Shown here piece by piece: positions 1 through 4,607 of a stretch of DNA of 44,064 nt. The DNA is from an uncultured Flavobacteriales bacterium. GTDB taxonomy: Bacteria > Bacteroidota > Bacteroidia > Flavobacteriales_G > Salibacteraceae. Under the pieces are notes generated by a model. It was not told the DNA's origin. It saw only the letters and a program-made list of their open reading frames with translations, and did not search any database. The position numbers and the translations under genes were made by a program. Positions within the stretch are counted from its first letter, which is position 1. Every line of letters begins with the position of its first letter. Location of the stretch: positions 1 through 44,064 of the forward strand of contig CAJVZZ010000021.1 of the NCBI GenBank assembly GCA_913020435.1, written 5' to 3'.

Positions 1-2925
1 TTGACTGCTATCGACCGTGTTCCAAAAATAGGTATCGTCTTTATTTATCGAACTCCCTGAAAGGGTGAGCGGCGAGCCCGGGCAGTATTTACCATTTAGG
101 GATAAGCTAACCGTTGCAACGGGAGTGTTTAGGTATTTCACCTGCACCGCTCCATTGTCTATTCCACAGGCGTTGGTTATCGTTACGGCGTAACTTCCTT
201 CTTGATTTATCTGCATTTTCGAGTCGGTTTGACCATTACCCCACAGGTAAGTTGATTGGGGCTGTGTCAACTCCACATTCCAGCTTGTGTTGTTGCACAA
301 AATGGTATCGGTTGGTAGCTCAAATTTTGGTGGCAGCAGTTCAGCTACTTTAAACTTTACACTGTCCGACCCGCAGCGGTTTACTGCCCCTACTCCATAA
401 GTTTTGAAATCTTTTATCCAAACTGCTGCTACGGTATCGCCTGTACTCCAACGTATTTGGGCTGAATCTACATTGACGCTTAGCCTAATCGAGTCGCCTT
501 TGCAAATGCTGGTGTCCTTTAGCTGCAAATTAGGAGCGTCTAGCTGGTAAACCTTTATGCTGTGTGTTTGCGTGCCGCATTGGTCGGTTACTTCTACAGT
601 GTAGGTTCCGCTTGCATTTACCACCAAGCTAGAATCTCTACTGCCATTGTGTGGCCAAAACCAACTCAGGTTGGTTTGCTTATTATCCTTTGCTCCCGCG
701 TTTAGTGTTAAGGGTAAGTGTGAGCAGGTGGCGGTATCCTTACCTAAGTTTATATTGGCTGGGTGGAGCGTGTCTACCTTAATGGTATCCGATTGTGTAC
801 CGCAGCGATTACTCACTTCTACCCAATAGATACCGGGTTGGGTAACTAAGTTCGTATTGGAGGACCAACCGTTAAACCATGTATAGGCAGCACCAGGATA
901 GTTGAGTATAAACACCAATCGGTCGCCAGCACACATAGCTGTGTCTTTTCCTAAATCTGGATATAAGGTATCTTGAATTATTATATTAATTTTAGCTGAG
1001 TCTACTCCGCATTTATTGGTTACGGTGACTTTATAATCACCCGTTTTTGAGACTGTTAACGTGGAATCTCTCGATTGATCTTGCCACAGGTATGTTGAGC
1101 TTTTCCATGCTGCATTTAGCAGTATTGTATCTGAACAGAAAACGGTGTCTCGGCCTAAATTGACTTCTGGTACAATAGCTGAGTCTACCTCCAAACTATC
1201 GTACCATTCTCCACATTGATTGTAACTGGTGTACCAATATTTTCCCGCTTTATTTATCAAAAATGTGTCAATAAAGGTAGTGTCGCCCCAGAAAAAATGT
1301 TTGGCTGTCTTTGTATTCCAAACTTTTAAGGTATCGCCTACGCACAAATTGACAAGGGTATCGCTCAATATTGGAATTTGAATGGTGTCTACGGTAATGA
1401 TCTCAACTACCGTATCTCGAGTTCCTCGATAATGGGTGGTATAAGCTTTAACGGAGTAGGTACCCGATTGCTGAAAGGAATGTTTTACGGTATCGAGTGG
1501 ATTGGCGGTTTGTAATGCTGAACCGTCTCCAAAATCCCAAATTACGCTAGCTACGCTGCTCGTATCTAATAAAGCAAATTTAGTGGTATCGGAGGTACAC
1601 CGCTGTTCTGAAAAAATCTTTGAAAACTTGAAATAACCGCTAAAAAAAGCGGGGAAATATTCGAAAAAATGTGTGGTATCGTGGGGTAAGACAAAAACGG
1701 AATCGGTAAAATTGCTACCTGTACCAAATATATTGGGTTGATTTATACGGCCAATAGATTTTTCTCCAGTTTTCCAATAAATTTTACCGTCTAAACCTAA
1801 TTGAATATCGGAGGAGGCAATGGATCCAGTAATGACCTTACCGTTATATTTCCAAATTCGTGAAGAGTCTGGACTTTTATATTGGAATTTTTTCGATTCT
1901 ATGCTGTCTTTGTTATAAACCGAGATATCCAATTGTGTTAAATGATGTGTCCATAATGAACTTTGGGTCTGTGGAGAATCAACATCAAAAACAGAATATA
2001 ACTTCTTACCATCTGGTGAAAAACAAATATTACCATATTCTATGCTAAGACTATTTTGTGTATATCTCCTGTACCTAGAGTCAATTTTAATATCGGAGAA
2101 ACATTTCCCTGTTTTAGTATTAAACTTAGAAAGCAACATATGTACTTGATGTTGGTACCTAAAATTAATAACACCAAAGTAAACTTTATCAACTGAAACA
2201 GCAAATATATCTCCTTGAGGTGAGAACTTTAGTTCTCCTTCGGCAGAACGAATATTGTTTTTTAAGTTAGATATTATAGGACTTTGCATACCCGTTGATT
2301 TTACTAAAAAAGCCGCGTATTGATTGGTATAATCTGGATAAACGGAAAACTTTCCCGTTTTTTGAAAGAGTACCCAAACGTCTTTACCATTTGAATGATA
2401 TGTAGCATCTACTTTAAATGAGTTTGACTGAAACAGAACTGCATTTTTTATAGTAACAGCTCCTAAGCCTCCATTGAGTGACATATCTACAACACTATAG
2501 TATACGTTACGTGTTTTATTAAAACCTGGATAATTATTGCCATCAATTGAATCTTGATAGAAGATAAAATAATCTGCATTATTCCCTGGTTTTTTAACTG
2601 CAAAAGATGAGTTTAAAGCTAAGTATGTCACTCTACTTTGTCCATTTTTTATACCGTTTCCATTGGACATCATTTGATTGTTCGCATCACGAATAAACCC
2701 ATTATTTAAAGTGAATAAAAAATTTCCATTTTTATCACTTATGCAAGCCGATGAAGCATTCTTAAGGTCAGTTTGCGGAACTTTGATTTGTAATTTTGGA
2801 GCGACTTTTCCTTTCTTGAAATCGATGGATAAGGAATCTCCAAAATACCACCAGTTGGTTTCGTATTGCGCCTTAACTGTATGGCAAACAAAAACTAGAG
2901 ATATTAGAAAGAATCGATTTATCAT
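1..2925 (-). CDS. Giant secreted PKD/Ig-repeat surface protein, probable T9SS type B substrate (C-terminus outside window)
   Basis: The frame is open for exactly 975 codons from ATG at 2925 to the left edge, so the C-terminus is missing. Residues 1-20 form a signal peptide ending KAQ. Residues 25-29 (WWYFG) match the start of a common Bacteroidota family with an N-terminal beta-propeller-like region, here about residues 30-450. A PKD domain follows with WDFGDG at 463-468. After it come six Ig-like repeats of about 65-80 residues, each with a TY/Y.V...N.CG.D/Q signature near residues 571, 640, 705, 786, 852 and 920, and the beginning of a seventh. The architecture predicts a secreted surface protein whose sorting domain would lie beyond base 1; that part is inference. 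A TACCTTTG box (minus strand, 2933-2940) sits 7 bp upstream of the start. Its repeat half is visibly GC-richer than its N-terminal half. Confidence 0.85.
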   Translation of the reverse strand, partial: MINRFFLISLVFVCHTVKAQYETNWWYFGDSLSIDFKKGKVAPKLQIKVPQTDLKNASSACISDKNGNFLFTLNNGFIRDANNQMMSNGNGIKNGQSRVTYLALNSSFAVKKPGNNADYFIFYQDSIDGNNYPGFNKTRNVYYSVVDMSLNGGLGAVTIKNAVLFQSNSFKVDATYHSNGKDVWVLFQKTGKFSVYPDYTNQYAAFLVKSTGMQSPIISNLKNNIRSAEGELKFSPQGDIFAVSVDKVYFGVINFRYQHQVHMLLSKFNTKTGKCFSDIKIDSRYRRYTQNSLSIEYGNICFSPDGKKLYSVFDVDSPQTQSSLWTHHLTQLDISVYNKDSIESKKFQYKSPDSSRIWKYNGKVITGSIASSDIQLGLDGKIYWKTGEKSIGRINQPNIFGTGSNFTDSVFVLPHDTTHFFEYFPAFFSGYFKFSKIFSEQRCTSDTTKFALLDTSSVASVIWDFGDGSALQTANPLDTVKHSFQQSGTYSVKAYTTHYRGTRDTVVEIITVDTIQIPILSDTLVNLCVGDTLKVWNTKTAKHFFWGDTTFIDTFLINKAGKYWYTSYNQCGEWYDSLEVDSAIVPEVNLGRDTVFCSDTILLNAAWKSSTYLWQDQSRDSTLTVSKTGDYKVTVTNKCGVDSAKINIIIQDTLYPDLGKDTAMCAGDRLVFILNYPGAAYTWFNGWSSNTNLVTQPGIYWVEVSNRCGTQSDTIKVDTLHPANINLGKDTATCSHLPLTLNAGAKDNKQTNLSWFWPHNGSRDSSLVVNASGTYTVEVTDQCGTQTHSIKVYQLDAPNLQLKDTSICKGDSIRLSVNVDSAQIRWSTGDTVAAVWIKDFKTYGVGAVNRCGSDSVKFKVAELLPPKFELPTDTILCNNTSWNVELTQPQSTYLWGNGQTDSKMQINQEGSYAVTITNACGIDNGAVQVKYLNTPVATVSLSLNGKYCPGSPLTLSGSSINKDDTYFWNTVDSSQ

Positions 2926-3602: not shown

Positions 3603-3632
3603 ATAATTTAATTTGGGAACTTGTCACGTCAA
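3603..3632 (-). promoter_or_regulatory. Predicted promoter of the cysteine-rich secreted protein
   Basis: On the minus strand TTG (3632-3630) is followed after 19 bp by TAAATTAT (3610-3603), a partial match to TAnnTTTG at the right spacing. The predicted start of transcription is near 3599, about 30 nt upstream of ATG 3568. Confidence 0.4.
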
Positions 3633-3687
3633 AAAAGTGTCATCCTATGTATTTGCGAAAGTGTTAATGCATAAATCATGTTGGTAA

Positions 3688-3709
3688 AACTCAATTTAAA
3701 AATTGAGTT
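3688..3709. repeat. 10-bp perfect inverted repeat next to the 32-bp array
   Basis: AACTCAATTT (3688-3697) and AAATTGAGTT (3700-3709) are perfect inverted repeats with a 2-bp spacer, ending 5 bp before the first array box. A looser pair, ATGTTGGTA at 3678-3686 and TACCAACAT at 3739-3747, brackets this element and the first box. Probably part of the same regulatory region. Confidence 0.5.
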
Positions 3710-3714
3710 GGGAG

Positions 3715-3874
3715 TGGTACTATAGTACCATTCTTTTATACCAACATGGTACTATCGGACACCTCTTGAGGCAAGCAGTGGTACTATAGGACACCTTTTT
3801 AGTTAGCACATGGTACTATAGGGTAACTTTTGTTGGCTTAGGTGGTACTATAGTACCATTTTTTAAATTACTTA
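3715..3874. repeat. Five-unit tandem array with exact 32-bp period (TGGTACTATAG boxes)
   Basis: Boxes start at 3715, 3747, 3779, 3811 and 3843, each exactly 32 bp apart, close to three turns of DNA. Every unit begins TGGTACTAT; the remaining ~20 bp vary. The first and last boxes are identical perfect 16-bp palindromes, TGGTACTATAGTACCA. Units 2 and 3 share the alternative right half GGACACCT. Unit 4 reads TGGTACTATAGGGTAAC. The array lies between two divergent predicted promoters, ending about 44 bp before the TTG of the regulator promoter and starting about 83 bp from that of the secreted protein. It has the form of a cooperative operator for a dimeric or oligomeric DNA-binding protein. The shared part is too short and the spacers too regular for CRISPR. 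Confidence 0.85.
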
Positions 3875-3917
3875 ATTGATTTACAGCTACTTACCTCCCC
3901 CATTACTTCAAACACCT

Positions 3918-3947
3918 TTGTTTACTGGGGTTTTTGCTGTATTTTTA
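3918..3947 (+). promoter_or_regulatory. Predicted promoter of the LuxR-type regulator
   Basis: TTG (3918-3920), 19 bp, then TATTTTTA (3940-3947) is a near-perfect Bacteroidota promoter (consensus TTG-N19-TAnnTTTG, one mismatch). Transcription should begin near 3951, only about six bases before ATG 3957. This argues for the 3957 start. Confidence 0.55.
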
Positions 3948-3956
3948 GACTCAATT

Positions 3957-4607
3957 ATGAAACAATATAGAACTGGCCTAGCTTGCACAGACATTGGTCG
4001 TGCAACTCAACTTGCAAAACGCCTAAAATCGTATGAATCAATAGATTTTTCATTCGATTGTAGAGATAATTAAAACCTATTCAAACTGCTAAAAGATTAC
4101 GAAGTGGATGTATTGGTGCTTGATTTTAAAAATGCTTTAAAATTGAAATCCGAATTAAATAGGGTTTCCGATATTCAACCCAACATTATTATAATCTGCA
4201 ATGCAAAAGAACATGAATTACTTATTCCTGCATGCTACCTCATGTTTTCGGTAGTCGATATAAAAGACATTGACCTACACCTTGAACTTGTTATAGAATC
4301 AACTGCTATGGGGGCACATGTTTTTAGTGCTAGTTTACGAAACTTGTTTCATGTTTCTCGCATGTATTTAGCACCTCCAAGTTCATTTGGCATAACATTC
4401 AACCACATAATAACGCTCAACAGTTATCTTGAAGGTGGAGACATCATACAAATTGCAGAAAGAGCAAATAAATCTCACTCTACCGTAAAAAAACATTTAA
4501 AACTTATAAGACAAAAACTTAACCTTGAAACTAACAACGAAATCATTGATTTTCTCCGAAAACACCATTGGTGTGATTTTAAAACAGGAAAATTGATTTG
4601 GTTTTAG
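3957..4607 (+). pseudogene. Receiver-like/LuxR-HTH transcriptional regulator interrupted by one in-frame TAA
   Basis: Read through, the frame encodes about 216 residues with the layout of a NarL/FixJ response regulator. It starts MKQYRTGLACTDIGRA and after 38 codons meets TAA at 4071-4073. It then continues in the same frame with NLFKLLKDYEVDVLVLDFKN, whose LVLDFK matches the phospho-acceptor strand of receiver domains. The usual acidic pair at strand 1 and the Thr/Ser at strand 4 (IIIICNA) are not evident, so the receiver looks degenerate. The C-terminus has a LuxR-type HTH (IAERANKSHSTVKKHLKLIR). One base change would restore the frame. It may be a recent pseudogene, a sequencing error, or a gene whose C-terminal part is made separately. 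It faces the 32-bp array, its likely operator. The convergent GT2 gene ends 12 bp away. Confidence 0.75.
4104..4607 (+). CDS. C-terminal part of the LuxR-HTH regulator, possible separate product from GTG 4104
   Basis: Downstream of the in-frame TAA the frame is open for 167 codons from GTG 4104. This piece keeps the putative phospho-acceptor strand, the rest of the receiver-like fold and the whole LuxR-type helix-turn-helix near its C-terminus. It could be made by re-initiation, since the stop lies only 30 bp upstream, but there is no clear ribosome-binding site or promoter in between. It is listed separately because it would be the DNA-binding product if the TAA is real. Confidence 0.45.
   Translation: MDVLVLDFKNALKLKSELNRVSDIQPNIIIICNAKEHELLIPACYLMFSVVDIKDIDLHLELVIESTAMGAHVFSASLRNLFHVSRMYLAPPSSFGITFNHIITLNSYLEGGDIIQIAERANKSHSTVKKHLKLIRQKLNLETNNEIIDFLRKHHWCDFKTGKLIWF

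Follow-up and report, generated by a model that had tools for sequence, protein, structure and literature searches.

The 44,064-nucleotide stretch analysed here (the window) contains, between a LuxR/NarL-type HTH gene and a divergent secreted/PKD surface-protein gene pair, an array of five equally spaced boxes. We consider it probable, at roughly two chances in three, that this array is a private multi-copy operator of the adjacent atypical NarL-type regulator, controlling both that regulator's gene and those for the surface proteins. All four members of the regulator subfamily, namely the window protein and three paralogs in the Flavobacteriales MAG HKST-UBA67 (loci L032, L033 and L034), share one layout: the regulator gene and a secreted-protein gene diverge, and a box array lies in the gap. 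The array is built from known elements, in a combination for which a search of the literature returned no description.

The box array and its surroundings

The five boxes span some 145 bp between two divergent candidate promoters. Read directly, they start at 3715, 3747, 3779, 3811 and 3843, and all four steps are 32 bp, so that the absence of spacing drift reported in the initial annotation is confirmed, as are its identical and perfectly palindromic end boxes. The 11-mer quoted there, TGGTACTATAG, is exact in four of the five boxes, box 2 having TGGTACTATCG, which departs at position 10; the invariant part common to all five is the 9-mer TGGTACTAT.

3715 to 3730, no strand assigned: box 1, perfect 16-bp palindrome TGGTACTATAGTACCA
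3747 to 3762, plus strand: box 2, TGGTACTATCGGACAC (TGGTACTAT-CGGACAC), left half retained, alternative right half
3779 to 3794, plus strand: box 3, TGGTACTATAGGACAC (TGGTACTAT-AGGACAC), left half retained, alternative right half
3811 to 3826, plus strand: box 4, TGGTACTATAGGGTAA (TGGTACTAT-AGGGTAA)
3843 to 3858, no strand assigned: box 5, the same perfect palindrome TGGTACTATAGTACCA as box 1

An inverted repeat unrelated to the boxes, ACTCAATTTAAAAATTGAGT (3689 to 3708, no strand assigned), lies directly left of box 1.

Mean pairwise identity between the 32-bp units is 1.00 in columns 1-9, 0.57 in columns 10-16, 0.70 in the T-rich patch of columns 17-22, and 0.21, about chance level, in the distal spacer (columns 23-32). 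Given the low spacer identity beside invariant box columns, the boxes have been kept and the spacers have diverged. Palindromes with at most three mismatches number 3 in the window against 0.07 expected, and the array appears to be a real, functional-looking operator array. TRF detects it with a period of 32/64. A functionless minisatellite, in which the likeness of the boxes is residual similarity after tandem duplication, would account for the exact 32-bp unit and for the GGACACCT common to boxes 2 and 3 beyond the core. Such an origin is highly improbable in view of the contrast between box and distal spacer identity, the differently spelled boxes found at similar spacing beside the paralogs, and the inverted copies in the L032 and L033 arrays.

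The genome-wide search, suggested earlier as a test for a dispersed repeat, found the box confined to the array: in the 2.95-Mb genome the exact palindrome occurs only at 3715 and 3843, and the next-best palindromes are three 2-mismatch sites, all within open reading frames. The box at 32-bp spacing was absent from 198 other genomes, and phages searched with the array DNA gave no match. A CRISPR array, for which near-identical direct repeats of ~23 bp or more and a cas locus were the criterion, was rejected, because only 9 bp are invariant across all five units and the outer boxes are palindromic; the neighbouring proteins that were profiled include no cas product. A triple repeat at L012 was inspected and judged unrelated.

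The genes and candidate promoters flanking the array are as follows.

1 to 2925, minus strand: second divergent gene, encoding a large PKD-domain protein and running off the contig end
2987 to 3568, minus strand: divergent gene, its product of 193 aa apparently carrying a signal peptide (by eye)
3603 to 3633, minus strand: weak promoter candidate for the divergent gene, TTTG N19 TAAATTAT
3917 to 3947, plus strand: near-consensus candidate promoter of the regulator, -33 TTTG (3917), N19, -7 TATTTTTA (3940-3947)
3957 to 4607, plus strand: LuxR/NarL-type HTH regulator gene, beginning MKQYRTGL and ending HWCDFKTGKLIWF

The Bacteroidota -7 consensus is TAnnTTTG (PMC9723704). The 193-aa protein had no match in Pfam or NCBIfam, and the N-terminal half of the window PKD protein is similar (E 5e-11) to a protein encoded in the divergent gene cluster at the L033 regulator. 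Other genes near the array encode a glycosyltransferase and a DUF4199 protein. The regulator's candidate promoter sits between the array and the regulator gene, downstream of the array, and this is one of the points that make an action of the repeats in RNA, as hairpins of a leader transcript, hardly plausible. The outer boxes and the L034 boxes could form short stems, and both array strands fold better than shuffles, but palindromes pair by construction, the right half is missing from the inner boxes, and an Rfam search gave only a chance-level snoRNA match, with no family at threshold.

The regulator subfamily and its arrays

The subfamily is marked by a GerE HTH together with a C-terminal [HY]WC motif, both common to the window protein and its three relatives; no other LuxR-type ORF that was checked has the WC motif. 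PF00196 (GerE) scores above the Pfam cutoff of 23.5 bits in the relatives (L008, 30.6; L014, 47.4; L016, 40.0) and just under it in the window protein (21.6, E 1.7e-4), whose gene is interrupted by a single in-frame stop, TAA at 4071-4073. Protein and profile searches covered >1,100 genomes (several of the searches on subsets, some at strict thresholds), taking in the family and samples of the class and phylum, and were combined with a scan of GTDB r220 contigs. Outside the window genome they placed the subfamily in a single genome, HKST-UBA67, a fragmented MAG. Weaker matches were rejected as members, their alignment being mainly to the HTH, and the viral contigs and plasmids searched yielded no such regulator.

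Among the best PDB matches to the regulator are NarL DNA-binding-domain structures, and an AF2 model is confident in the HTH and unreliable in the N-terminal half (pLDDT mostly <50). A receiver domain was sought in the three intact members, with no match at E<=1. Because a few full-length response regulators (4hye, 4zmr) align along most of the profile, the N-terminal part is possibly a degenerate receiver. The regulator is best explained as an atypical NarL/FixJ-type protein, to judge from these matches, with a LuxR/GerE HTH, an N-terminal part unrecognised as a receiver, and [HY]WC.

The three HKST-UBA67 arrays differ from one another in spelling. At L034, three perfect ATTACCC-N4-GGGTAAT dyads follow one another in steps of 34 and 34 bp, and ATTACCCnnnnGGGTAAT occurs exactly nowhere else in that genome. 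At L032, where the divergent gene is cut off by the contig end, AATAGTACTTTAG is present three times, with dyads 33 and 34 bp apart and the middle box inverted yet in dyad register, an arrangement that is hard to reach by tandem duplication; AATAGTACTTTAGKA is likewise restricted to this array. The L033 array consists of direct copies of CTAAAAG-kATAGTTTT 65 (2x32.5) and 33 bp apart with one inverted copy between them, and is irregular, its inverted copy falling into register for just one of the possible dyad centres. Genes near the HKST-UBA67 regulators encode, among other products, PKD proteins and a C-terminal sorting domain of the T9SS type. The leaders of the divergent genes are alike at L032:440-560 and L033:3400-3510 (AAGCCAGTT...CATGGTATTTT...GAAAGGTTnGGAGGTTTT), while the boxes differ.

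These loci bear directly on two proposals of the initial annotation. Its preference for selection for regular protein binding over recent duplication gains from three arrays standing beside regulators, one of them with an inverted, in-register box. Its candidate binder, the neighbouring LuxR-HTH protein, appears likely now that three related regulators each adjoin a box array of their own. The phased-dyad detector scored three of the four regions, including that of the window, above 300/300 dinucleotide shuffles, the L033 region being equalled by 1/300. Since the control locus L039 (~8 kb) reached 24, as L032 did, a long sequence cannot be judged by this score alone.

A different binder, such as a global regulator, a nucleoid-associated protein or a recombinase, with the LuxR gene adjacent by chance, would fit an interrupted window regulator beside an intact array, and the inverted copies between divergent genes at L032 and L033 do resemble recombinase sites. 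We nevertheless regard it as improbable: box spelling varies with the neighbouring regulator paralog, the three of the four box types searched genome-wide (window, L034 and L032) are each confined to their own array, unlike the sites of a global regulator, L039 was the only control to score within the arrays' range, and none of the neighbouring genes inspected was recognisable as a recombinase gene.

The inference that all boxes face the same side of the helix holds approximately in the window, at 32 bp, and fails as a rule for the family, the relatives using 33-34 bp. With a helical pitch of 10.5 bp per turn, spacings of 33-34 bp are not strictly in phase. Because of these relatives, a constant centre-to-centre distance fits better than exact same-face phasing, and it is the distance between boxes, not their exact facing, that seems to be the conserved feature.

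A candidate private operator among known systems

In autoregulated divergent operators beside surface-protein genes, a single intergenic control region serves both regulator and target, as it would here; the difference lies in five equally spaced dyads and in box spellings that vary from paralog to paralog within a constant layout. The heptamer of E. coli NarL is TACYYMT, which the window half-site TGGTACT misfits. Both regulators have a LuxR/GerE HTH and several sites per promoter, and the window box, read directly as TGGTACT-AT-AGTACCA, has the inverted 7-2-7 geometry at which NarL binds as a dimer (PMC4549865). The system here departs from NarL in the other spacing of the L034 dyad (ATTACCC-N4-GGGTAAT), in a regulator with no recognisable receiver, and in an array that is equally spaced and private to one locus rather than part of a regulon.

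Streptomyces BldM offers a second comparison. It is also an atypical response regulator, whose homodimers use a 16-bp palindrome, whereas BldM-WhiI uses a 16-bp site with one half changed (PMC4125116). BldM is a global developmental regulator and is not known to use equally spaced arrays. The parallel is of interest for the inner boxes. These had been described as keeping only the left half, with GGACAC twice, and the retained left half and the two GGACAC copies stand; a simple loss of the other half does not, for AGGAC recurs in the L032 array, where two boxes carry AGGAC and one carries AGTA. Box 3 includes TACTATAGGAC, a match to TACTTTAGGAC of the L032 array, and the core TACT[A/T]TAGGAC is common to both arrays. 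AGGAC, which both genomes have as the alternative half, could be either a weaker half-site or one that a heterodimer partner recognises.

A mixed-dimer operator would exploit the latter, the outer palindromes binding the regulator homodimer and the inner AGGAC boxes a heterodimer with a second LuxR-type protein. The BldM and BldM-WhiI sites are a precedent (PMC4125116), boxes 2 and 3 both combine one retained half with GGACAC, and the L032 array repeats the mixture in another genome. This arrangement seems unlikely, since L034 holds perfect palindromes only, no partner gene (no WhiI-like protein) was identified here, and degenerate homodimer sites would give the same appearance.

Our proposed mechanism for a private operator of the adjacent regulator follows; in it, binding and its cooperativity are inferred, and so are the sign of control and the signal. 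The regulator would bind each 16-bp dyad as a dimer, and five dimers about three helical turns apart would make cooperative contacts between neighbours. Lying between two divergent promoters, this row of dimers would control the regulator gene and the divergent secreted/PKD genes, with cooperative occupancy giving a steep response. Because the paralogs keep the layout with different box spelling, each regulator-operator pair may be insulated from the others. Points against the private-operator reading are the TAA and sub-cutoff GerE score of the window regulator, a family found in two genomes, its absence from three congeners, the relatives' spacings of 33-34 bp, off helical phase, and the irregular L033 array. 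If the reading is true, a single family would supply four natural regulator-operator pairs with a common geometry and different box spellings, providing a direct route to how LuxR-type HTH proteins shift DNA specificity yet keep cooperative spacing, and a handle on how bacteria prevent cross-talk among paralogous surface-protein switches.

Fate of the module in the genus and G tracts upstream of the regulators

Conservation of the boxes beside orthologous genes, the remaining expectation of the initial annotation, was not borne out: all three congeners (G001, G002 and G003) are without the regulator and the array. In two of them, remnants of the 3' end of the regulator, read from local alignments of ~30-45 bases, persist beside the same glycosyltransferase gene, as stubs of the last codons (TGKLICF-stop at L144:2430-2620 in G001; KIGKLIWF-stop at L145:2430-2700 in G002). 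In G002 the remnant leads into the PKD gene's 5' portion, in G001 the PKD gene survives only as its 3' portion, and G003 has a different gene at the corresponding place. G001 and G002 thus appear to represent two different deletions of the module. Because of these remnants, a regulator that was ancestral and deleted in the genus is more likely than one newly inserted. Added to the TAA that interrupts the window copy, they suggest ongoing decay of the module in the genus. As the window regulator carries a stop codon within an apparently decaying module, the window array may be orphaned already.

A run of nine G (AAATnG9TA, the first n being C or G) lies just upstream of all three HKST-UBA67 regulators.

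L032, 726-734: G9 tract
L033, about 3667-3675: G9 tract
L034, about 3702-3710: G9 tract

Runs of at least nine G turned up at only ~8 places in the 3.8-Mb HKST-UBA67 genome, and the tract is a possible phase-variable element of these regulators. It is conceivable, though we hold it rather doubtful, that duplicated modules, each with its own operator spelling at near-constant spacing, provide orthogonal switches for different surface proteins, with the HKST-UBA67 copies perhaps phase-variable via G9. In the window, the counterpart of the tract is limited to GGGGGAGG at 3894-3901, oriented the other way. The same motif, as AAATG9-10TA, was seen between two apparent divergent XRE-type HTH genes (by eye) at L097 (about 2022) and L110 (about 1958), as G9 in HKST-UBA67 and G10 in congener G002. 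This G run directly precedes a TAnnTTTG -7 box and therefore lies within the promoter spacer.
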